Made by a program: the position numbers and the translations under genes. From the IMG/VR virus record IMGVR_UViG_3300032893_000058, positions 1 to 56,288 of that record: a stretch of DNA of 56,288 bases. One strand, given 5' to 3'. Every line of letters starts with the position of its first letter. Position 1 is the first letter of the stretch. Source of the stretch: a virus. This document shows positions 2,556 through 56,288 of this stretch, one piece after another. The notes under the pieces are model-generated. The model had not been told where the DNA came from, searched no databases, and saw only the letters and a list, made by a program, of their open reading frames with translations.

Positions 2556-3893
2556 TCAGAGGCCAGTCCAGGCGTTGATAATGCCGGAACCAGCGTCGTC
2601 CATCAGCAAGGTCGCGGAACCCGCGGCCGGGAAGCCGGCAGACGACGTGCAATCGATCGGAACGCGGACGTTGGTGGCCGCGAAGCCGGATTGCAGCGTC
2701 GACGTGCGGGTCACGGTGCACGCGGTCTGCGCCGAGCACGCCGTAGTCGAGCACGACCCAAAGCCGGACGTGTACGACATGGTCGGGGTCTTGTACATCG
2801 GCACCGGGAACTGCAGGATGCAGGTTTCGAGCGAAGTGGTTGAGGACGTGCACGGCGCATGAACCGCACCGACCGCGCCTTCAACGATGCGATAAAAATA
2901 CTGCAGCGCATCCCTGTTTTCATCAGCCTTGGCCCGCACTTCAAACAGTGACGCGCCGGGGGCCTTTTCCAACTGGGCGCCGGTCCAGGCAAAACCGTCA
3001 GTCGCGCCGGAACCAGTCGCAGTCGGAGTGAAGCACAACATGACGCCGATTTCGGTCGCGGTCGACGGAATGGTCGCCGTGGTCGAATAACGCGCAAACG
3101 TGGTCGACAGGTTGATCGTCGTGTTGACCAGCGTCGCGATGCCGGTCCAGGCCGGCGTGATCGCAGGCGACGCCGTCCACGACTGCGTCAGACCTTCGTC
3201 GGTGCCGGTGCCAGTGATGATCACCAGGTTGGCCGTGCCGCCGTTGTCCGCGGCCAGACCCGCCAGCGCCGCCACGTAGGCCGACAGCGTGACCTGCTGG
3301 CCGGCAAGCATCGCCGACTGGGTCGCCGGCACCGCCTGCATCACGCACACCGGCTGGGTCAGCGCGCCGGAATTACGCCACACCTTCATCGCATTGGTAA
3401 AGCCGGTCGGCGGCGTCGGCGACGACGTCACGATGGCAGTGCGCCCGACGCCGGACCCAACGTTGGCGTCACAGCCCCAGCGATCCGCACTGAGCGCCGC
3501 GACGGTCATCGCCGACGTAGTGGCACAGGTCACGGTCGACGTGCCGTTGGTATTGGTGATATTGAGCGCGCCGTTACCGAGGAAATTGCGCGGCGTGCCC
3601 CAGGTCGAGCCGGCGGCCTGAGACAACGGCACCAGCACCGTTTGCGGGCCGCCCCCGGTGGTGCGGGTATCGGCCGGCACCTGTTCGAGGCCAGTCATCG
3701 GCGGGCCGGCAGGCACGGTGTTCGTGCACTGTTGCGGCGTACCGGGGCCGCCCGGCTGGTTGAATGACGAGCAATACGACGCGCCGCCGACGATGGGGAA
3801 GTTCGGCCACAATCCGGCCGCGTGAACGGCGAGCGGCACCAGCAACGCAGCAACGGCCGCCCCCGCGATAACCTTAACGTAGTTCCTATTCAT
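2556..3893 (-). CDS. Tail protein with carbohydrate-binding-type domain and signal peptide
   Basis: 445-residue protein. Residues 1-25 form a Sec signal peptide (hydrophobic core IAGAAVAALLVPLAVHA). The middle has the pattern of phage structural sugar-binding domains: FLGNGALNI, then a DRW motif, a Thr/Ser-rich beta region, and GAQLEKAPGASLFEVRAK followed by ALQYFYRIV. That last signature (QLE, then FE-R, then the Q-YFYR motif) is common at the end of such domains in many phage tail proteins. The C-terminus is Cys-rich (CSTTACSAQTAC), which would suit oxidised disulphides if the protein is really exported. It lies between the small terminase and the fibre. Probably a receptor-binding or virion decoration protein. 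Confidence 0.75.
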   Translation of the reverse strand: MNRNYVKVIAGAAVAALLVPLAVHAAGLWPNFPIVGGASYCSSFNQPGGPGTPQQCTNTVPAGPPMTGLEQVPADTRTTGGGPQTVLVPLSQAAGSTWGTPRNFLGNGALNITNTNGTSTVTCATTSAMTVAALSADRWGCDANVGSGVGRTAIVTSSPTPPTGFTNAMKVWRNSGALTQPVCVMQAVPATQSAMLAGQQVTLSAYVAALAGLAADNGGTANLVIITGTGTDEGLTQSWTASPAITPAWTGIATLVNTTINLSTTFARYSTTATIPSTATEIGVMLCFTPTATGSGATDGFAWTGAQLEKAPGASLFEVRAKADENRDALQYFYRIVEGAVGAVHAPCTSSTTSLETCILQFPVPMYKTPTMSYTSGFGSCSTTACSAQTACTVTRTSTLQSGFAATNVRVPIDCTSSAGFPAAGSATLLMDDAGSGIINAWTGL

Positions 3894-42300: not shown

Positions 42301-42637
42301 AGTCGTCTTTCTCCATCTTTTGATGGACGCGTTTGCCGAATTTTTCCGAAGCGCCGCGGTCGCGGATCAGCGCTTCGGCGATCTGATCTTTCATGTAAGT
42401 CGAGACGCGCGCTTCCGGCGCCTTTAGCATTTCGACCAGCAGGCGCCGCGCCAATACCACAAAGTGAACCCACCCTGGCGGAATTTTTTTAGCCTGGTTC
42501 TCTCCTACGATTCGCCAGCCACTTTTATAATGCTTCCAAGTAGGAAAAGCAGCGCGAAAGCGCTCGCTACGATTGCGCTCGTAAAATTGACCGGCTAATT
42601 CCACGGCCATTGATTTAATGAGCGGTTCTATCGACAT
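42269..42637 (-). CDS. Conserved phage hypothetical protein
   Basis: 122 residues. ELAGQFYERNRSERFRAAFPTWKHY and GWVHFVVLARRLLVEML resemble a hypothetical family of phage structural modules. Unknown role. Overlaps the homing endonuclease by 23 bp. Confidence 0.55.
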   Translation of the reverse strand: MSIEPLIKSMAVELAGQFYERNRSERFRAAFPTWKHYKSGWRIVGENQAKKIPPGWVHFVVLARRLLVEMLKAPEARVSTYMKDQIAEALIRDRGASEKFGKRVHQKMEKDDYGEKSVAAVN

Positions 42638-43121
42638 TAAGCCGCCCTTTCTTATTAAGTTTGTTCATTTGGCTTTTATACCAAGCGTCTTTCTTTAAAG
42701 TCTCTGTGGTGCGAAAATAATTACCATTAACTAATTTACACCGCAGAGACTTTGGAAGAGTAACGTGAGTCTCCCAAAATTCGATGGCTAATTTAGCCCG
42801 TTCTGCTTTAACAATTAAATACGGGTACATTTCGCACAACAAATTGTATGCAGCTTCTCCATTCCATGTTAAACGACCAGCTACCTTGCATTGGGCTGGG
42901 CGATTACATCGGTCGTTTAAATAAAAGCAACCGCCATAAACCCCGTGGATTAGCCTTAACACTGTCATATCAGTATTAACGACTGATACGCGGAGAGTGC
43001 TGCGCTTATATTTTCCTAACCGAGCAATCGTAATGTTACCTTCACCGTCAAAAAATCCGGCTAAGTATACGAGCGACAAAACTTGTCGCAATAGCCGTTT
43101 ATTTTTAGTTTTAGGTATCAT
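42615..43121 (-). CDS. LAGLIDADG homing endonuclease
   Basis: 168 residues from ATG 43121 (overlapping the previous stop). The single LAGLIDADG motif reads YLAGFFDGEGNITI (about residues 19-32), and the C-terminal half has the matching fold (LYLIVKAERAKLAIEF-like). It is much more AT-rich than its neighbours and sits between two virion genes, as a free-standing mobile endonuclease. A single motif suggests it works as a homodimer. Confidence 0.85.
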   Translation of the reverse strand: MIPKTKNKRLLRQVLSLVYLAGFFDGEGNITIARLGKYKRSTLRVSVVNTDMTVLRLIHGVYGGCFYLNDRCNRPAQCKVAGRLTWNGEAAYNLLCEMYPYLIVKAERAKLAIEFWETHVTLPKSLRCKLVNGNYFRTTETLKKDAWYKSQMNKLNKKGRLNVDRTAH

Positions 43122-43327
43122 CAACGCTTACCACGCTTGCCGTGAAAATTTTTCTGTCCGGGCGCCGCGTGCTTCTTGCGGGCGATTTCGCCGATCACGC
43201 CGCCCGGCACACCTTCAGCCTTGAGTTGCGCCGCCCGGCCGCCGTGGCCCAGCTTGTTCGACTTGCCGCGAAACGACCCGGTCTTCCGGGTGCCGTGACG
43301 ATGCAACTTTCCTGCCGGCTGTGCCAT
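43121..43327 (-). CDS. Small basic Gly-rich phage protein
   Basis: 68 residues from ATG 43327 (GGAGGG upstream). GTRKTGSFRGKSNKLGHGGR, GVIGEIARKKHAAPGQKNF. Similar small basic proteins occur in many phage structural modules. Unknown function. Confidence 0.55.
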   Translation of the reverse strand: MAQPAGKLHRHGTRKTGSFRGKSNKLGHGGRAAQLKAEGVPGGVIGEIARKKHAAPGQKNFHGKRGKR

Positions 43328-46174: not shown

Positions 46175-46624
46175 TTACTCCCAACGTATTGCGATGGCGC
46201 CGGCAATGGAACGGGCGCGGCTACGCAGCGCATGACCGTCATTACCGGATTCCACCACCCACTGGCCGTTCTGCTGGCCGACGATCTTGCCGACGTGGTG
46301 TGGCCATACTACCACGGCGCCGATGCCGACCGGTCCTGGATGGCCCCAGCGCGCCCAGTTGCGCGCGAGGTTATACGAACTACCGGGGTCGCTGCTGACC
46401 AATTGACGCATTGCCCAGCCGCACCAGGCGGCGGGCCGCGGGCCGGCGTGAGCGCTGTTCAACATGTGGAGCAGCCCGGCGCCCAGCCCTTCGGCAAAAT
46501 TGTGCGCCACGACGACATAATGATGGTGCGAACGGTGCGCGTGATGACGTGCGTGATGTCGGCCGTGCGCCGAAGCCGGCGTGGCCAACACGACGAGCAA
46601 TGCTGCGATCAAAATATGTCTCAT
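46175..46624 (-). CDS. Secreted NlpC/P60-like (TIGR02594-type) peptidoglycan enzyme
   Basis: 149 residues. Sec signal peptide (MRHILIAALLVVLATPASA), a His-rich linker (HGRHHARHHAHRSHHH), then PAAWCGWAMRQL (catalytic Cys68), SYNLARNWARWGHPGPVGIG, VVVWPHHVGKIVG (His110) and VVESGNDGHAL. The Cys-His arrangement and the order 'WC - ArnW - wG - pvGa - HVG - GN' match TIGR02594/CHAP-like enzymes that cut peptidoglycan. Located next to the portal gene, so it may be a virion or lysis enzyme. Confidence 0.65.
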   Translation of the reverse strand: MRHILIAALLVVLATPASAHGRHHARHHAHRSHHHYVVVAHNFAEGLGAGLLHMLNSAHAGPRPAAWCGWAMRQLVSSDPGSSYNLARNWARWGHPGPVGIGAVVVWPHHVGKIVGQQNGQWVVESGNDGHALRSRARSIAGAIAIRWE

Positions 46625-48981
46625 TGTGGAGTCTCCGTGCCGTTACTAATCGGGGTCGCCTGCAAAAATTCACCAGTGTCCGGGTGCTGCGTATACAAAT
46701 TGCCGTCGCCGGCCTTGACCAGCCGCCCGGCCAGATTGCCGTTGGCCTTCAGGCCGCCGCGCCACGCGCCGAGGCCGACGTCCGGAATGTCCATCGGCTC
46801 GCCGCCGCCCTGCTCCACTGCTTGCGAAATGTCTTCGCCGCCCAGCTTGGCGATGCGGTTCGGCAGGTCGATGCCGAGCATGTCAGACAACGTCTGCCTG
46901 ATCTGGTCGTCCAAGTCCTCACGCTCGCCGAGAATCTTGACCGCCTCCGCAGTACCCTTGAGCCGCCGGGTTTCAGCATCGTACGCCTCGATGTCGCGCA
47001 ACTGTTCCTTGCCGACCAGTTTGAGCCGCTTCTCGGCCAGCGACTGCATCGCTTCGCCGACTTGCTGCGTCAGTTCCTTGACCTGATTCTGCAGTTGCAT
47101 CATCATCGGCGTCGGCGCCTGATCGTCGAACAGATAAGGCTTCTCGACTTTGATCTTGCGCATCAGCCGTTCGGCGATCTTGTCGGCCAGCGGGAAGTCG
47201 GCCGAACGGAACATCAGGTCGCCGATTTCGTTGATCAGTTCCGGCGCCCCGGTCACGATCTGCACGAACGCATTCCAAGCTTCCTGACGCTGCGTGCCAT
47301 ACGCCGGGCCGACATCGGCCTCGACGATGTAACGCCCGATCTTCGGGTTAAACATCACCTGAATGGCGTCGCCGTCCTTCTTTTCGTCGATCGCCTTTTC
47401 CAGGTCAGGCTTAATCGTAATTTTGCTTTCAACGCCATCGCGCCCCATGATCTGAATGATGCGCTCACGGTCGTAAATATGCGGCACCAGGTCGAGGATG
47501 ATCATGCCGGTGTAGCGAATCGCCGCCGCCTGATGATCGACGAAATGATAAGTCGACTTCTCGGCCGGGCGCTGGCGTTCCTGAATGGCCTTACCGGAGC
47601 GCTCGTTGCCGGTGCGTCCCTCGTAAGCTTCATACTGGCCGCTTGCCATGTCCATTTCGTGATCGGCAATGCGCATGCCGTCCAAGAAAGCCGGCGACGT
47701 GCCGGGTGGTTCCGGGCGCTGCGGCATCGGGATCGGCCGATCGTTTTCGTCAAAGGCATTGACAGGCAGGTACGCGTAATTTTGTATGTTGGCCCGGTTC
47801 CACATGTCCTCGTTACCAGCAAACGCTTCCTTCGGCCCGACCCACGGCACCTTGGTCTGCAGCGCGCCAAATTCGACCTGACCCGAACTATTATAGTTGT
47901 ACATGCGCTGCGGGTCCTTGAGGCGCCGCACGTGCCCGCACCGGTAAAGCTCCCCATCGATCACGCGCTCGACGCCGACCGTGCGCACCAGTGGGATATA
48001 CTTGCCCTTCAGCTTGCGCCGGTCGACGATGACGTTGCCGACGATCTTGTACCATTCGAGCGTGCGCTTGACCACCTTGCGGCGCCGCACTTCGTTGCCG
48101 GCCTCTTCTTCCCGCTTCAGCGCGTCGATGAACTGCTTCGGCACGTCGGACCGCAAAAATACGGTGCCGGTGCCGCCTTCATCTTCCATGTAGATAAGTT
48201 CGTCGTCCTTTTCCAAGATGCGGTAATATTCGGCCTCGCGCACGCTGTCGAGCCTGATCCAGGTGTCCGGCCCGCTGAGCGTCGAGCCGGCGGCCGTGAA
48301 ATCGACGTTCGGATATTCGCGCTCCATTTCGTCCTTCGGCTTGTCGCTGAAGACGAAGCCATATCGCGCGTCCGACCCGTCAAACTGTTCGATATCCGGG
48401 TCGAGGTAGACGCCAAGCTGGTTCTTGACCGGCGCAATGTAAATGCTCTGGTTGAACCAACTGATGTCGGGACGGTCGAATTGATTAACCTCTTCGCTGT
48501 CGAACTTGGTGATGACGCGCCACCAGCCGATGCCGCCTTCGACCGCGCTTTCAAGCGAATTGTCGTAAATGGTTTGGGCCTTCGACACGTACTCGATGTG
48601 CCGGACGATGCCTTCCTGAATCTGCGCCGCGCGAAATGTCGTGTCGTCGCCGACCGGCTTGACCGTAATCGACGCCTTGTTTTCCCGTGCGTCATTGACG
48701 ATCAGATTGACCTTTTGTACCACTTTGTTGATGGTCAACGACGGGCGCTTGTTTTTTTCGCGCTCTTTTTTCAAGTCATGCGGCCATTGCCAGCCGTTGT
48801 CGGCGTCGGCGTTGGCAAACTTCACGTCGGCCTTATACAGCGTCTGAAACTGGCTTTCCCAGTCGACGCACCGGTTGAAACGCTGCTGCGCTTCCTGGAC
48901 GATCCTGTCGTCTTCGGATAATTCGAGCGACGACGTGCGCTTGTCGGTGCTCTGGTCCTTGGTCGTGGGGCGCTTGGCCAT
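46621..48981 (-). CDS. Portal protein, P22 type
   Basis: 786 residues, the usual size. P22-portal features: DGWQWP-like NGWQWPHDLKKEREKNKRPS, LTINKVVQKVNLIVNDAREN, ITVKPVGDDTTFRAAQI and the later helical barrel region (LQNQVKELTQQVGEAMQSL). It forms the dodecameric channel for packaging and ejection. Follows the large terminase by 1 bp. Confidence 0.9.
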   Translation of the reverse strand: MAKRPTTKDQSTDKRTSSLELSEDDRIVQEAQQRFNRCVDWESQFQTLYKADVKFANADADNGWQWPHDLKKEREKNKRPSLTINKVVQKVNLIVNDARENKASITVKPVGDDTTFRAAQIQEGIVRHIEYVSKAQTIYDNSLESAVEGGIGWWRVITKFDSEEVNQFDRPDISWFNQSIYIAPVKNQLGVYLDPDIEQFDGSDARYGFVFSDKPKDEMEREYPNVDFTAAGSTLSGPDTWIRLDSVREAEYYRILEKDDELIYMEDEGGTGTVFLRSDVPKQFIDALKREEEAGNEVRRRKVVKRTLEWYKIVGNVIVDRRKLKGKYIPLVRTVGVERVIDGELYRCGHVRRLKDPQRMYNYNSSGQVEFGALQTKVPWVGPKEAFAGNEDMWNRANIQNYAYLPVNAFDENDRPIPMPQRPEPPGTSPAFLDGMRIADHEMDMASGQYEAYEGRTGNERSGKAIQERQRPAEKSTYHFVDHQAAAIRYTGMIILDLVPHIYDRERIIQIMGRDGVESKITIKPDLEKAIDEKKDGDAIQVMFNPKIGRYIVEADVGPAYGTQRQEAWNAFVQIVTGAPELINEIGDLMFRSADFPLADKIAERLMRKIKVEKPYLFDDQAPTPMMMQLQNQVKELTQQVGEAMQSLAEKRLKLVGKEQLRDIEAYDAETRRLKGTAEAVKILGEREDLDDQIRQTLSDMLGIDLPNRIAKLGGEDISQAVEQGGGEPMDIPDVGLGAWRGGLKANGNLAGRLVKAGDGNLYTQHPDTGEFLQATPISNGTETPQ

Positions 48982-48982
48982 C

Positions 48983-50326
48983 TTACAGGTTCATCCATCC
49001 GTTGGGGCTGTCGCCCGACCGCAGCGAACTTTCACGTTCGATGGCGGCGCCTTCGTCGCCTGTGTCCTGTTCTTTTTCCTTTTTGTTGCCCTCGCGTAGT
49101 TCTACCGCGTAATAGCCGAAGGCTTTCGCACCGTGCGACGCCCAGTTATGCTTCGGGGTCTTTGACCGCTGGTTGGTGTGCGGGTCGACGTCGTATTGGT
49201 AATGTTGCAACGACAGCACGCCTTGCGAACAGTCGACTTCATTGATGTTGATGCGCGGAAATAGCGCGCGGGTCGCGCTGATCTGATTGACTTCCGGAAT
49301 GTTCGGCACGATGCGCACGATGCCGGGCGTCGGCAACAGTGCCTTGACCTGCTTTTCGATGGTGTTGTGCACCAGCCCGCGCGCTGCTTGGTGCGCCTGC
49401 CGGGCGTCATGGGGTAACAGCACCCGCTTGATGATGTAGCCGCGGGCCTGAAGCTCTTTGATGAAGTAGCCGATGTCCTTCGCCACGTCTTCCATGTAGA
49501 AGATGGCGTTGTGATCCATGCTGATTTGCTGAAACACCCAGCAGGCGCAGGCGTCCGAATCGCCGAGATCAAATACGACGGTAACGCCGCGCCCGGCGTC
49601 GTGCTTGATGCGCGGCGACACGCGACCATCTTCGATGGCCTTGCCCAGTTCCTTGGCATAAATGGCGCCGCTTAATGCGCGCCGCGGCCTGCCTTCCCAT
49701 ACGTTCAAATATTCGTCATAGTCCTTGGCCCGCATATCGAGCATCTGGCGTTCCGACGTTTTCGGGAAGAACGGATTGTCCTTATAGTTCATGACGATGA
49801 CGATGGCGCCTTCCGGCGGGTCAATCACGAACATCTTGTAAGTATCATCGGTGACCAATTCCGGGTTGAGATCAATCCAGATTTCCGACCCCTGTTTGAA
49901 CGGTCCGGCCGGCGGGTCGCGCCGCACGGTCGGCAGCAGCACGCGCCACTTGGCCTTCGACACGTGGGCCGCTTCCATTACCCACAAGATGTCGATGCCC
50001 TCGGTCGAGCGGACCGAATTAATGTTGTTCAGGCCTGTAAATACGAACGTCGTGCCGTTGACACCCCGAATTTCGGTTTCGAGCGTCTGATAAAAACCGC
50101 CCAGTCCGATCTGCTCCGACTGCTCGGAAATGACGCGGTGCAACGAGTCCTTGATCGAGCGTTGCACTTCACGAGCACATACGATGAACAGCTTCCGGTG
50201 AGAGCCGAGAATGAGAGCGGCGCGGGCAAACGACCACGACGCCCCTTTGCTGCGCCCGCCGCAGATTACCTTGTACGGCGCGGGCGTAAAGATCGGCTTG
50301 ACTTTATCGGGAAACTGAACCTTCAA
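48983..50326 (-). CDS. terL: Terminase large subunit
   Basis: 447 residues from TTG 50326 overlapping the previous stop. ATPase motifs: Walker A-like CGGRSKGASWSFA (residues 22-34) where the Lys stands earlier than in the usual GxGKS/T, and Walker B ILWVMEAAHV. Nuclease part: VVFDLGDSDACACW (metal-binding Asp), later LLPHDARQAH and the final SHGAKAFGYYAVE. The C-terminal tail is acidic/basic and disordered. PBSX/terminase_3-like. Confidence 0.87.
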   Translation of the reverse strand: MKVQFPDKVKPIFTPAPYKVICGGRSKGASWSFARAALILGSHRKLFIVCAREVQRSIKDSLHRVISEQSEQIGLGGFYQTLETEIRGVNGTTFVFTGLNNINSVRSTEGIDILWVMEAAHVSKAKWRVLLPTVRRDPPAGPFKQGSEIWIDLNPELVTDDTYKMFVIDPPEGAIVIVMNYKDNPFFPKTSERQMLDMRAKDYDEYLNVWEGRPRRALSGAIYAKELGKAIEDGRVSPRIKHDAGRGVTVVFDLGDSDACACWVFQQISMDHNAIFYMEDVAKDIGYFIKELQARGYIIKRVLLPHDARQAHQAARGLVHNTIEKQVKALLPTPGIVRIVPNIPEVNQISATRALFPRININEVDCSQGVLSLQHYQYDVDPHTNQRSKTPKHNWASHGAKAFGYYAVELREGNKKEKEQDTGDEGAAIERESSLRSGDSPNGWMNL

Positions 50327-50682
50327 CGCGGCACCTTTTCTGCCCGCAACGTCTGAATTGCGGCTTCATGGTCCTTCACTTGCTGCTTCATTTCGTTAAA
50401 CTGCAGTATATGATCGGCAAATGAAGTCGTAATCCGCGTGAGAGCGACAGTCGTCTTATCCTGGTTTTCCGCGATCCGGCTCATGGCTTGCCAGACGCGC
50501 GTATTGTCGCCGTCGACCTTGGTCTTGATGTCGGAAAGCTGGGCCTGAGCCAGCCATAACGCAATCGCACCCAACGCACTGATGGCGAGCAACAGACCGC
50601 GCATTGCCCACGCGGCAGTGCGTTCTTTCGTCTCGGTAATCGATTTGAGCAGTGACAATGACCCGTTTCCAGCTTCCGACAT
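50323..50682 (-). CDS. Membrane-anchored coiled-coil protein, holin or inner-spanin candidate
   Basis: 119 residues. One membrane helix (AMRGLLLAISALGAIALWLA, residues 26-45), then a coiled coil up to the C-terminus (QQVKDHEAAIQTLRAE). This layout fits an inner spanin or a one-helix holin. It lies between a holin-like gene and TerL. Confidence 0.55.
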   Translation of the reverse strand: MSEAGNGSLSLLKSITETKERTAAWAMRGLLLAISALGAIALWLAQAQLSDIKTKVDGDNTRVWQAMSRIAENQDKTTVALTRITTSFADHILQFNEMKQQVKDHEAAIQTLRAEKVPR

Positions 50683-50722: not shown

Positions 50723-51433
50723 CTAGGGCACAATTGGCACCAGGGGCGCCACCGATGCCCCCGAAATGATCGCACTGACGATCTGCAGTACGGACTTTTT
50801 CGATGCGTCCGCCATGGCCGCGCAGTTAATCTGAATGTCGCCGCCGGTCTGCAGCGACTGAATAAGTTCGCTCACCTTCTCGGCGTCGGTAAAGACATGA
50901 ACTGGCGGTAGGGGCGGCGTCGTGCCGCCGGTCGTCGATGCCGGTGGATTGAGGACCGCTTGCTGCTTCTGCACCATGTTCACAACGGCGGTCCAGCACG
51001 GCGCCGTCACCTTGTTCGGCATCGCATTGGCGAGCGCCTGAGCATTTTGCAGGTCGGCCAGTGCGATGTTGTTGATGTTCTTGATCAGATTGGCGACAGC
51101 GGTTGCCGGCGTCGTCGAACCATTCTGCGCGCGGGCCGGCGTGCCGAACAGGACGAACAAGATGAACAGCGGCAACAGCAGCCAGGCCAGAACCGCCTTC
51201 GTACCGGTCGGCAGCGTCGCACTGGTCAGCGGACCGGCTTTGCTTGACGCAATGCCGGTAAGCGCCGTCAGCACGACGCCGTTGATCTGCGCGGCAAGAC
51301 CAGCAAACCATTGAACGTCGGGCGCGTATTGCGCGATGATGGGCGGCGCTTGCTGCACGCCGTAGCCGGCGATGAGAATCAAGACGTTGGTCAAAACCCC
51401 GAACCAGAACGTGAACTTGGCGTCGACTTGCAT
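50723..51433 (-). CDS. Holin-like membrane protein with extended C-terminus
   Basis: 236 residues. Hydrophobic helices near residues 9-26 (FWFGVLTNVLILIAGYGV), 50-62 and 80-101 (AVLAWLLLPLFILFVLFG). A 130-residue soluble C-terminus with two Cys follows. Position next to endolysin and hydrolase genes suggests a holin or lysis membrane protein, but the long tail is not typical. Confidence 0.55.
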   Translation of the reverse strand: MQVDAKFTFWFGVLTNVLILIAGYGVQQAPPIIAQYAPDVQWFAGLAAQINGVVLTALTGIASSKAGPLTSATLPTGTKAVLAWLLLPLFILFVLFGTPARAQNGSTTPATAVANLIKNINNIALADLQNAQALANAMPNKVTAPCWTAVVNMVQKQQAVLNPPASTTGGTTPPLPPVHVFTDAEKVSELIQSLQTGGDIQINCAAMADASKKSVLQIVSAIISGASVAPLVPIVP

Positions 51434-51434
51434 T

Positions 51435-52121
51435 TTACCCTCCGTTTAGTTCCAACAGTGCAAGGCCCGCGGCCACGTCAGCGTGTGCCGCACCGAGTGA
51501 GTGGCCGGTAAAAACGACGGCATCTAGCCCGGCGAGCAGAGGCTTGATTGCCTTCCATGTCTCGGCCATGCCGATGACGAAGCCGTCCCACATTCGGCCA
51601 AACTTGTCGTGATCGACCACGCCTTCTGCCGCGTGGTCAATGCCAGTCAGATCGCGCAGCCAGTCGAGCTTGTCGTCCGAACCGCGAAACACGACATAGG
51701 CCGTTTTATCTTGGAACTTCAGCCCCCAGCACACGCCGGCCGTGACCTGGAATTCGTCCCACGTCTGCGGCGCACTGCTGTCCAGGACGTAGATGTCGCG
51801 ACACAGCCCGACGCAAAATTGGTGCTGCTCCGGAATGCAGCCGTCCTTGGCCCCGGTCACGTACAGTTCGACGTGATGCCATGCAAACATGCCCCAGTGA
51901 TCGCCGGTCGCGGGCGGTGCCGATATCAACTTCAAGTCAGTAGGGTGGCGAAAATTTAATCCGAGAATGGGCACGGTCAACGGCACATCGGTGACACGGT
52001 CGTGCTGCAGCGGCCCGGTGTAATTGCAATAAGATATGCTCTCGTCCAAACCCTTAAGTAGGGTTGCGAACACCGGGCCGCCAGGTTTTGGCTCGCCGAA
52101 GACGATGCGTTGCAGCTTCAT
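51435..52121 (-). CDS. Class 3 lipase-like hydrolase with circularly permuted order
   Basis: 228 residues. Residues 2-100 look like the C-terminal part of a class 3 lipase: KLQRIVFGEPKPGGPVFA, DRVTDVPLTVP, HPTDLKLISA, HHVELY. Residues 105-228 look like the N-terminal part: AYVVFRGSDDKLDWLRDL, MWDGF and the nucleophile elbow VFTGHSLGAAHADVAAG with Ser208. The end LALLELNGG fits directly onto KLQRIVFGEP at the start, as it would in an ordinary lipase. It likely hydrolyses lipids during lysis or entry. The permutation is my reading of motif order. Confidence 0.7.
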   Translation of the reverse strand: MKLQRIVFGEPKPGGPVFATLLKGLDESISYCNYTGPLQHDRVTDVPLTVPILGLNFRHPTDLKLISAPPATGDHWGMFAWHHVELYVTGAKDGCIPEQHQFCVGLCRDIYVLDSSAPQTWDEFQVTAGVCWGLKFQDKTAYVVFRGSDDKLDWLRDLTGIDHAAEGVVDHDKFGRMWDGFVIGMAETWKAIKPLLAGLDAVVFTGHSLGAAHADVAAGLALLELNGG

Positions 52122-52122
52122 C

Positions 52123-52683
52123 TTATTGTCGTGCTTTCCAGCACTCTATGACCGTGTTGAACATGGTATCTTGCGCCTCACCGAAGTCGCCGGGGTGCGC
52201 GTCTTGCCGCTTGATCGTCTCGATCTTGGTCGTCTTGTTGCCGGGCGCTGGCACGTAGGTCGCATGACCAAGGGCGCCCGTCTCAAAGATGACCGGGTTG
52301 CGGAAGCACAACGCCCGTACGACGTTCGCCGGCACGTTGACGGCGCGCGTGATGAGATCGTCGCCATCCGGGATCGACACTTCATGCATGACCGGGTCCC
52401 AGTCCGAAGGCTGAAAACCGCCAACGAAGTCGACCTTCTGCGGGTTAAGGTAGCCGGCGAAGATCGGCGCTGCGCCTGCGCCGAGGCTGGCGCCGACGAT
52501 GCCGCAAAATCCGACGAAACGGTGTAAAAAATCGTAAGTCTTCTGGCTGTCGGTATGTTGCACCAAGATCGTCTCGATTCCTTCCTTACTGAGGCGTTGC
52601 TGAAATGCGGGTAGATTGATCGGATCAGCCGCGGCGCCGAACTGCCCGAACACGACCGAAACGCGTGCAGGGACGAGGGTCAT
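52123..52683 (-). CDS. Alpha/beta-hydrolase-like protein
   Basis: 186 residues. FCGIVGASLGAGAAP contains a GxSxG-type nucleophile elbow (Ser66), and a His lies near the end (DAHPGDFGEAQ). The order fits an alpha/beta-hydrolase fold. It lies between the endolysin and the lipase-like gene, so an esterase role in lysis is plausible. No specific family recognised. Confidence 0.55.
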   Translation of the reverse strand: MTLVPARVSVVFGQFGAAADPINLPAFQQRLSKEGIETILVQHTDSQKTYDFLHRFVGFCGIVGASLGAGAAPIFAGYLNPQKVDFVGGFQPSDWDPVMHEVSIPDGDDLITRAVNVPANVVRALCFRNPVIFETGALGHATYVPAPGNKTTKIETIKRQDAHPGDFGEAQDTMFNTVIECWKARQ

Positions 52684-53558
52684 TGCGTTACTCCCTGATG
52701 TTGCTTCATTGCCGCGGTAAGTGCGGCGTCGGTCTTTTCCCCGAACAGCCCGTCCGGCACCAGCTTATTGAACCGCTGGAATGAGCGCACCGCTTCACGC
52801 GTCCGGCGCCCATACGAACCGTCCACCTTCAACGCGTCGGCCGCCGGCAGATAGCAGGTGTTAAGTGCCTGCTGCACCCAGCGCGTGTCATGCGGCCCGA
52901 TCACCGAGACGCCGACTGCCGGGCCGCCGACGCCATGCGGTAACGGTTGCGGCGGCGGGACGATGGCAAGCGTGTCATGTGCCGGTAAATTATCAAACGC
53001 AAGATCGGGCCGCAACGCGATCAGCCGGCGCATCACCGGAATGATGCCAAGCTGCTTGTCGGTTTCCCGCGCGTCCCATTCGTTGTCGGCCACATATTTT
53101 CCGCGCACGTATAGGCTGGTGCCGGACCATAAATAACCGGTGCGGATGCCGTGACTGCGCGGGCCAAACCCGTTCCACGCTTCGCCCTTCCAGCACACAT
53201 AAGACCACGACCATGGCGCCGAATTGTCGTCCAGGTGATCGTACCGAATGTAAAAGATGTCGGCGTCGAACTTGGACGACCATGGCCCCTTGCCGCGCGG
53301 CACGTTGCGCGATACTCGATTCCATGGATCGCCCTGTCCGATGGCGCAGTGCGGGTTGGCATCATCCTCACGCTGATCGAGCGCTGCCAGGAACGCCGCC
53401 GGCACCTTAACCACTTCCTGCTCGCGCAGATATAAGTCCATCTTGGGCAACAGCGACTGCGCCACCTTGTCTACTTCGATGGGGCGCGTTACTTTCATTG
53501 CCGCGAGATCGGCTTCGTATTCGGGGCGCAGGACTTGATATGGGTGCTGCATGGTCAT
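52680..53558 (-). CDS. Endolysin with peptidoglycan-binding C-terminus
   Basis: 292 residues from ATG 53558 (overlapping the fibre stop). The N-terminal 190 residues match phage/rhizobial lysozyme-family proteins: PAAFLAALDQREDDANPHCA, WNGFGPRSHGIRTGYLWSG, GKYVADNEWD. Two Glu/Asp-rich motifs (QREDDA) are likely catalytic. The C-terminal 65 residues form a PG_binding_1 domain (WVQQALNTCYLPAADALKVD, GSYGRRTREAVRSFQ, LFGEKTDAAL). It degrades peptidoglycan at lysis. Confidence 0.8.
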   Translation of the reverse strand: MTMQHPYQVLRPEYEADLAAMKVTRPIEVDKVAQSLLPKMDLYLREQEVVKVPAAFLAALDQREDDANPHCAIGQGDPWNRVSRNVPRGKGPWSSKFDADIFYIRYDHLDDNSAPWSWSYVCWKGEAWNGFGPRSHGIRTGYLWSGTSLYVRGKYVADNEWDARETDKQLGIIPVMRRLIALRPDLAFDNLPAHDTLAIVPPPQPLPHGVGGPAVGVSVIGPHDTRWVQQALNTCYLPAADALKVDGSYGRRTREAVRSFQRFNKLVPDGLFGEKTDAALTAAMKQHQGVTQ

Positions 53559-56288
53559 TGCCAAGTTGTACTCGACATTGCACTTTGTAAGTATGACACG
53601 CCTTGCGTACCATAAAAGGTGCAGCCGGTGGTGGTGCTGGAAAATTCCAAGGCCGCCAGCGTATGAAAGCCTAACGGAGCGACGCCTTCATAGCGGCCCA
53701 CTACCTGGGTAAATTGCCCAACAAACGAACTGAACAGGAATGCGCCACTGGGCGCCGTCGTGCTGTCCAACCCGACGCCGACGGAACAATTGGTAGCAGT
53801 TCCCGCTGCCGTTTCGCCGTTGTACACCGCATCGATGGCGTCTTCTGACACGCCCTCCAAAAATTGAGTTTGCATACCGGCCGAAGCATTAACTTGGTGC
53901 CAGGAAGCAGTATTCCAGGTCCAACTGGCGGCATTATCGCCGACCATCGTCTTGATCGAAACGCGATTGTAATAATTATACAGTGCATAAAGCCCAGCTG
54001 TGGCATGGCCCCCCGACGTGCCTATCGCGCCGAATGTAAAGCTAGTCTGGCCGTTGGCCGTCGCGTATAATGAACCAAGATAAGTACCTTGGTCAGCCGC
54101 AACAGTGCCGAAATCGGTCGTCCCGCTGGCACCGCCATAACAATGTGTCAGCGAATTCTGGTTAGTCAGGAACCCCACAGTCATATTGACGTGAATTTGC
54201 GTCGTGCCGGCACCCGTGCCACGCGTGCTGGTGGTGCTCCACGCCGGACCGGCGCAGATCGCGAGCGTTCCTGAATTGTTGATCGCGAATACGTCATAAA
54301 CGCTGCCGCTGGCAATGTGCGGCGTGACGGCATCCAACCCCATCGAAATTTCGCAACTGCCGATGGCCAGGAACGTTGCCTGAGTGCCGTTGTACACCGC
54401 GACGTTCGGACCTTTATAACAATCTAAGAAGACCGTGGTCTTGGCCGATTGCGTGGTGGTCATGACCGGCGTAGCACTCTGCAGCGTCAACCGGCCTTGA
54501 CTTGCCGACAAGTTGCTCAGGACCCAGGCGGGCAGGCCGCCGGAATTTCCCAATACTTGACCTGCGCTGCCAACTGCTAGGCGCGCAAGATGCGTGCCTG
54601 AATCGCGATAATAAGTGTCGCCGGTCGCATCGGAACCTAGCGACATCGTCACTGTGCCGAGCGTGTCGGTATTTGAGGTAATGGTCTTGTTCGTCAGCGT
54701 GTCTGTCGTTGCTTTACCAACCAGCGTGTCCGTGGCCGCAGGGAACGTCAGCGTGCCGCTCGCTGTGGCGCTAGCGTTCAGCGTGGTCGAGCCACTGGAC
54801 GACCCGTTCAAAATCAAATCGCTGGAATTAAAACTCTGCGCCGCGGACCACGTCTGCGCCAGATTAAGTTCTGCAACGATGCCGGTGTTCGCAGGCAACG
54901 TTGCCGTTCCGCTTGCCGTGGCGCTGGCATTCAACGTCGTCGAGCCGCTAGACGAACCGTTCAAAACCAGGTCGCTGGAATTGAAGCTCTGCGCCGCGGA
55001 CCAGGTCTGAGCGAGATTTAATTCGGCGATTATGCCGGTGTTGGCTGGCAACGTTGCCGTACCACTGGCAACCGCAGTGGCATTCAGTATAGTGTTACCC
55101 GAGGAAGAACCGCCCAGGAACAGATTATTGGAGGCAATGACGATGTTTGAGCCGTTGCTCGTCACCCCGGCCACGCAGCCAAAGGCGCCGGCGGCGTTGT
55201 ATTGCAGCGAAAGAGCCGTAGTTGTACACGGCGTACCTGAACCGCCACTGACGTTGGTCCAACTCATCACGCCAGCCGTGGTCGAAGTCAGCGAATAACC
55301 ATTGCCGGCCGGCGGCGCCGCGGGCAACGTATAAGTGCCGCTGACGGTGGTGGGGGTGGCAAACGAAACTGAGCCGCTGTTTGCGTACAACGTCAGCGAC
55401 TGCGTCGTAAGCATTTTCTTATTATCCAGGTAATAGCCCATGGCATTACCCAGATTGTTGGTTCCGTTGCCGCACATATTGATCGTGCTGGGGCCTTGAT
55501 CGGCCATCGTCACGCCGCCACTCGGCAACGCAAACTGGCCGCAATGCGCCGTAATACCGCCAGTTTCTTCACCCGCCATCAGACCAGAGCGAATTTCAAA
55601 GCGTGGCACGACCGAAGGGACCGACAGTGCCTGCGTATCGATACCCACGGTCGAGAAGATTTGTGCGGCTTTTACGTCCTTATAGCTATTACCAGCCGTA
55701 CCGACTGACACAATCTTGTTTAGCCACTGGGTGTAGCCAAATTCCAGTGTCGTGTTACCGTTGAGCGCGAAGGCGTTGATGCCCAGCAGATAGTCACCCG
55801 ATTGTTGCGTACGTGCAGTGTTTACTCGATAGTAGGAGAGAACCGGCCCCACATCAAGCGTTGTCCCATACGGAATGGGCGTGATATCGGCGGAGAAAAT
55901 TTCCTGGAAGTTGCTGTTAGAGAAACAGCCGGTATTAAGCTTTGGCGCCCCGACAGGGCAATTGTTGGGCGGCCCTGCAGGACCAGGTAAGCCGGTCTGA
56001 TCCAGATAACTAGATGATACAATGGGAAAATCCTTCGAAGTAGTCCAGAAATCGAAGCTACCCGCCCCCGAGCGCTTCATCACGCCTTTATAGGCAATAA
56101 TGTCTGTATTAGTCGCAGGCGGGCCGCCAAAATGAGCGCTCGTCACGATTTCTGCCAGGGCCTGTGTGCCTGCCGATGCCTGGGCCGTACAGCCCGTGCC
56201 GCCTTCCTGTGCGCTCGTTAGCGCCCCTGTGCTCGTGTTGACGAAAATACAATAAGAGCCGTTGGAACCTGAACTTGACGCCGTCAAC
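53555..56288 (-). CDS. Tail fibre / receptor-binding protein, C-terminal 868 residues
   Basis: Continuation of the gene starting at 2058; bases 56162-56288 repeat 1-127. The sequence is Gly/Ser/Thr-rich. Three tandem 51-residue repeats (NLAQTWSAAQSFNSSDL, LNASATASGTATLPANTGI) lie at DNA about 54753, 54906 and 55059. Further on comes TLTNKTITSNTDTLGTV, a motif common in phage fibre shafts. The last 300 residues (from about DCYKGPNVAVYNGTQATF) look like a globular beta tip for receptor binding. No chaperone or peptidase domain is visible. Confidence 0.85.
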   Translation of the reverse strand, partial: LTASSSGSNGSYCIFVNTSTGALTSAQEGGTGCTAQASAGTQALAEIVTSAHFGGPPATNTDIIAYKGVMKRSGAGSFDFWTTSKDFPIVSSSYLDQTGLPGPAGPPNNCPVGAPKLNTGCFSNSNFQEIFSADITPIPYGTTLDVGPVLSYYRVNTARTQQSGDYLLGINAFALNGNTTLEFGYTQWLNKIVSVGTAGNSYKDVKAAQIFSTVGIDTQALSVPSVVPRFEIRSGLMAGEETGGITAHCGQFALPSGGVTMADQGPSTINMCGNGTNNLGNAMGYYLDNKKMLTTQSLTLYANSGSVSFATPTTVSGTYTLPAAPPAGNGYSLTSTTAGVMSWTNVSGGSGTPCTTTALSLQYNAAGAFGCVAGVTSNGSNIVIASNNLFLGGSSSGNTILNATAVASGTATLPANTGIIAELNLAQTWSAAQSFNSSDLVLNGSSSGSTTLNASATASGTATLPANTGIVAELNLAQTWSAAQSFNSSDLILNGSSSGSTTLNASATASGTLTFPAATDTLVGKATTDTLTNKTITSNTDTLGTVTMSLGSDATGDTYYRDSGTHLARLAVGSAGQVLGNSGGLPAWVLSNLSASQGRLTLQSATPVMTTTQSAKTTVFLDCYKGPNVAVYNGTQATFLAIGSCEISMGLDAVTPHIASGSVYDVFAINNSGTLAICAGPAWSTTSTRGTGAGTTQIHVNMTVGFLTNQNSLTHCYGGASGTTDFGTVAADQGTYLGSLYATANGQTSFTFGAIGTSGGHATAGLYALYNYYNRVSIKTMVGDNAASWTWNTASWHQVNASAGMQTQFLEGVSEDAIDAVYNGETAAGTATNCSVGVGLDSTTAPSGAFLFSSFVGQFTQVVGRYEGVAPLGFHTLAALEFSSTTTGCTFYGTQGVSYLQSAMSSTTWQ
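56162..56288. repeat. 127-bp end overlap identical to bases 1-127
   Basis: Every base from 56162 to 56288 equals 1 to 127, within the fibre gene. The length of 127 matches a common assembler k-mer, so this is most likely an assembly overlap of a circular (circularly permuted) genome rather than a real terminal repeat. Confidence 0.9.

Follow-up and report, generated by a model that had tools for sequence, protein, structure and literature searches.

A stretch of 56,288 nucleotides from an uncultured soil phage (IMG/VR record IMGVR_UViG_3300032893_000058, analysed over its full length and referred to here as the window) encodes a class 3 lipase that, judged by its sequence, is a permuted variant of the PF01764 family and not an ordinary member, because the order from VxFRG to DxVP and the catalytic His is swapped in the native protein. 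We regard it as very probable that this gene goes back to a lysis-cassette lipase that was permuted once, in frame and long ago; the new order would have arisen probably by tandem duplication and trimming, and hydrolase activity would have been retained. The gene lies exactly where the initial annotation had placed it, on the minus strand, and its motifs follow the order given there: FGEPKPGG (residue 8), DVPLTVP (45), HHVELY (82), VVFRGSDDKLDWL (143), and GHSLGAAHA (206) along the 228-residue protein. The frame opens for only 236 codons, so no missing first half lies upstream of the lipase. The junctions on both sides are tight, with the preceding gene ending at 52123 and the following one starting at 51433, and a GGAGG run is present within the last codons. 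The features of the gene and of its neighbourhood are collected in Table 1.

Table 1. Parts of the permuted lipase gene and neighbouring genes in the window
Feature	Position	Strand	Remarks
Circularly permuted class 3 lipase gene	51435..52121	minus	228 aa + stop; ATG start, TAA stop; Pfam Lipase_3
Residues 3-93, C-terminal part of normal lipases	51843..52115	minus	profile 127-213; 70.4 bits, i-E 1.8e-19
Asp41	51999-52001	minus	within residues 3-93; triad column invariant in alignment
His82	51876-51878	minus	within residues 3-93; triad column invariant in alignment
Residues 94-102, new linker from old C-terminus to old N-terminus	51816..51842	minus	
Residues 103-222, N-terminal part of normal lipases	51456..51815	minus	profile 8-120; 93.4 bits, i-E 1.7e-26
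Nucleophile Ser208 in GHSLG	51498-51500	minus	within residues 103-222
Endolysin-like, C-terminal peptidoglycan-binding domain	52680..53564	minus	homologues just upstream of unpermuted lipase in L036, L081, L082
Orphan, 186 aa, GASLGAG serine-elbow-like motif	52123..52683	minus	directly upstream of lipase
Membrane protein (possible holin/lysis protein)	50723..51433	minus	homologues directly after unpermuted lipase in L033, L027, L081
Small membrane/coiled-coil protein, weakly Rz-like spanin	50323..50682	minus	phrog_7686, E 2.7e-4
Terminase large subunit	48983..50326	minus	adjoins lysis cassette

The initial annotation had proposed comparing the protein in both orders, and the scores against Pfam and PHROG rose on rotation. 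In the native order, only residues 142-218 matched PF01764, at model positions 1-81 (32.4 bits); after rotation at residue 100, model positions 1-137 of 140 were covered (39.1 bits), and both scores exceed the gathering cut-off of 22 bits. With PHROG 21992, the score increased from 38.2 to 47.8 bits, the native protein matching the first half of the profile only and the rotated one covering most of it. We also built a lipase profile exclusively from 15 unpermuted viral relatives. The native protein gave two matches to this profile in swapped order (70.4 and 93.4 bits), whereas the protein rotated at the linker gave a single collinear match of 176 bits, compared with 93 bits for the native order. 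When all possible cuts were scanned, the score peaked at approximately 177-179 bits for rotations at residues 92-104, which correspond to the linker, and was lowest near the native order (80-93 bits). The N-terminal part alone scored 73.8 bits, as opposed to at most 7.6 bits for its 500 shuffles, and in the rotation control a shuffled N-terminal part in place of the real one yielded at most 100.6 bits. Measured against the shuffles, the score of the N-terminal part and the rotation scan place the swap far beyond chance. Taken together, the two halves are each homologous to those of normal lipases, stand in swapped order, and cover the family in full once rotated, while the collinear VxFRG, DxVP, His order of PF01764 finds no match in the native lipase. 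The assignment to class 3 lipases, which had been made from the letters of the DNA together with that of circular permutation, was borne out as well: the PF01764 match recurs in all five permuted members, and the GHSLG elbow and the Asp and His of the triad are present in columns that are invariant across the alignment. In an alignment with 14 unpermuted relatives, 25 columns are invariant, and the window lipase keeps every one of them, including Ser208, Asp41, and His82.

A search of IMG/VR for the DNA pattern HSLGA...FGxPxPG returned 17 stretches, 15 of them with lipase ORFs; the remaining two (L016 and L017) match the pattern without a lipase and were rejected. An alignment scan covered 52 viral and 9 bacterial loci, among which the order of profile domains identified L026 and L032 as permuted like the window lipase and the others as normal, the exceptions being a few contig-end fragments that hold only a part and a broken copy, L085. 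In the latter (Bradyrhizobium erythrophlei, positions 2851-3373), the lipase is split between two overlapping frames, and its first part is missing. When the permuted alignment served as the query, L087 and L089 were recovered as well, together with L090, an identical copy of L089; a final scan for further permuted members added none. Thus, in addition to the window, four distinct permuted proteins (L026, L032, L087, and L089) occur on five other IMG/VR contigs including L090, and approximately 50 other family members show the normal order. Unpermuted homologues among relatives, which the initial annotation had suggested looking for, therefore exist, as do further permuted ones, and the permutation is heritable and not an artefact. 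The permuted relatives are 52-57% identical to the window lipase, with the same cut site, and the start of the gene abuts or overlaps the end of the upstream gene in L032, L087, L089, and the window. No match came from scanning IMG/VR and GTDB contigs with the single protein, whether native or rotated. A permuted copy was absent from approximately 1,480 genome look-ups centred on Bradyrhizobium, where strong matches split as expected for the normal order, and none was found in the cultured-phage collection. Cultured phages and plasmids held no convincing relatives of the lipase, with one weak class 3 lipase match to an unpermuted query.

We inferred an unrooted tree from 54 rows, in which the permuted rows were rotated. 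The five permuted lipases form one clade (support 100/99). This clade lies within a larger group of 27 rows (97/91), whose other 22 members are unpermuted lipases of viral contigs and Pseudomonadota genomes. Trees of each half recovered the permuted clade too (SH-aLRT 98 and 99), so that no separate origin of either half is detectable. By parsimony, the permuted state is derived, since the normal order is seen in fungal lipases of known structure and in the remainder of the family. Pairwise dN among the permuted proteins was 0.25-0.45 and dS ranged from 1.0 to saturation; with dN well below dS, the permuted lipases are under purifying selection.

From the known topology of alpha/beta-hydrolases, the cut would lie after the nucleophile helix and before the strand that follows it. 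The new termini had been placed right after the nucleophile helix, and the spacings agree with this: they lie approximately 20 residues past the nucleophile serine, and the distance from Ser to FGxP, a median of 25 residues in unpermuted lipases, is 25-29 residues across the termini of the permuted ones, indicating that the cut removed almost nothing. At the other junction, each of the five permuted proteins has 26-28 residues between the catalytic His and the conserved Tyr. Normal lipases have approximately 17 residues (median) after His and 14-18 from the start to Tyr, and these lengths fit old ends that would have been joined almost directly. The permuted chain would be expected to adopt the alpha/beta-hydrolase core of its relatives, its ends presumably lying on the surface loop that connects the nucleophile helix to the following strand.

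The lipase gene sits among putative lysis genes next to the terminase gene, whose best matches are in phages with annotations for P22-like portal and coat proteins. In Bradyrhizobium prophages, an unpermuted lipase occupies this slot, flanked by homologues of the endolysin and of the downstream membrane protein; in Bradyrhizobium sp. STM 3843 (L081), endolysin, lipase, and membrane protein overlap by 4 bases. Given homologous flanking genes on both sides, the permuted gene is the positional counterpart of the normal one. The orphan immediately upstream may, from its motif, encode a second, unrecognised serine hydrolase or esterase; it has no trustworthy match in Pfam, PHROG, NCBIfam, or PDB and one weak genome relative (31%). 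Its interpretation as the remnant of a duplicated lipase was rejected, as only 21 columns align. Porin-like secreted ORFs occur near permuted lipases in L026 (1997-2803), L089 (5180-5992), and L087 (4965-5936), immediately upstream of the lipase in L026 and L089, and those of L087 and L089 share 35% identity. Elsewhere in the window, the ORF at 42615-43124 (minus strand) has a LAGFFDGEGN motif and is probably a LAGLIDADG homing endonuclease between structural genes, and an 836-codon frame at 46411-48921 (plus strand), antisense to a 786-aa ORF at 46621-48981, is probably a composition artefact.

The triad, the family, and the neighbourhood point to an enzyme that would cleave esters in membrane lipids around the time of host lysis and so aid the endolysin, holin, and spanin-like proteins, with only the neighbouring genes speaking for lysis itself. 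A doubtful but arguable alternative is that the lipase acts outside lysis, targeting esters of capsule or storage material, for instance, or altering host membrane lipids during infection: the neighbours of the permuted loci vary, which makes the cassette a mosaic, but the endolysin and membrane-protein neighbourhood is common to the window and unpermuted relatives, and in L026 the permuted lipase follows genes for a GH108 muramidase and an M15 peptidase.

As to how the order was changed, the permutation most likely arose once, in line with the duplication-and-trimming model (PMC3320104). The lipase gene would have been duplicated in frame and in tandem within the tightly packed cassette; a new start would then have arisen before FGEPKPG and a new stop after GHSLGAA..., and the joined old ends would have become the linker. 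No duplication intermediates were seen among the approximately 50 loci, and no direct repeats of lipase halves were found around the window gene. Fission followed by fusion is another known route (PMC3320104): had the lipase been split into two genes that later fused in reverse order, the end product would be the same, and the loop at which the halves meet could tolerate a split. We consider this unlikely, as no separate intact half-genes in swapped order occur among the approximately 50 loci and the length of the linker matches simple end-to-end joining. It is more improbable still that the permuted protein is no longer catalytic and is retained in lysis for binding or for some other structural function. 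Permutation could disturb an active site; however, each of the five permuted proteins retains Ser, Asp, and His in family-invariant columns, dN/dS is well below 1, and engineered permutants of Candida antarctica lipase B (CalB) stay active or improve (Qian and Lutz, as relayed in PMC3320104 and PMC3982246). Misjoining of two lipase fragments in one contig during assembly or binning, conceivable for a metagenomic virus record, is already refuted by the independent permuted contigs, which show the same order and cut in four other distinct proteins and one identical copy, and it is at odds with the intact frame and the tight gene junctions.

It is rare for a clear natural circular permutation to have close relatives in the normal order that occupy the same gene position. 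With five permuted and approximately fifty normal proteins to compare, the evolutionary step, and what it cost or gained in function, can be put to a direct test. The case is also relevant to engineering: permuting a lipase in the laboratory can increase its activity, and the window lipase is a natural example with the cut at a new place. As the chain ends would now adjoin the nucleophile helix, substrate access or lid behaviour is possibly altered. Annotation pipelines detect only half of the permuted lipase, and others may therefore be hidden. We think it likely that no natural circular permutation was known before this one for class 3 lipases or for any phage lipase, and that the permuted enzyme forms a stable clade that has replaced the normal counterpart in the same lysis-cassette slot. 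Our literature search turned up no report of natural permutation for class 3 lipases or for phages; subscription papers were mostly outside its scope, so that novelty is unproven. The earlier statement that permutation of this fold is undescribed in phages agrees with this search. For the wider fold, a fungal precedent is said to exist.

The closest known systems are the unpermuted phage and prophage Lipase_3 proteins (PF01764, PHROG 21992; Bradyrhizobium L080-L082), which share family, motifs, triad, and cassette slot with the window lipase but have the normal order of halves, with the N-terminus at the LC/IY helix and the C-terminus after HxxLY; the viral relatives are 29-40% identical to it over the rotated length. 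Their profile matches fungal class 3 lipases at E 1e-12 to 1e-18, and the permuted profile matches only the first part of these. The fungal enzymes (Rhizomucor, Penicillium, and Thermomyces; 4tgl, 1tia, and 1dt3) share GHSLG, D, and H with the window lipase and, unlike it, are unpermuted and secreted. The PHB depolymerase of Penicillium funiculosum (2d80) was reportedly described by Hisano in 2006 as a natural circular permutant of the alpha/beta-hydrolase fold. It is said to be a secreted fungal enzyme of a different hydrolase family, neither a class 3 lipase nor from a phage, and, unlike the window lipase, it reportedly lacks an unpermuted counterpart at an equivalent gene position. Permutants of CalB made by engineering are well documented (PMC3320104, PMC3982246); they belong to the same fold class and, as far as these sources relay Qian and Lutz (2005), tolerate permutation and can gain activity, but they are laboratory-made and of another lipase family, whereas the window lipase is natural. 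A survey of alpha/beta-hydrolases describes permuted or reversed strands 1 and 2 (PMC11878206), a topology change in the same superfamily that is confined to edge strands; in the window lipase, by contrast, whole halves are swapped between the nucleophile and the acid and His.
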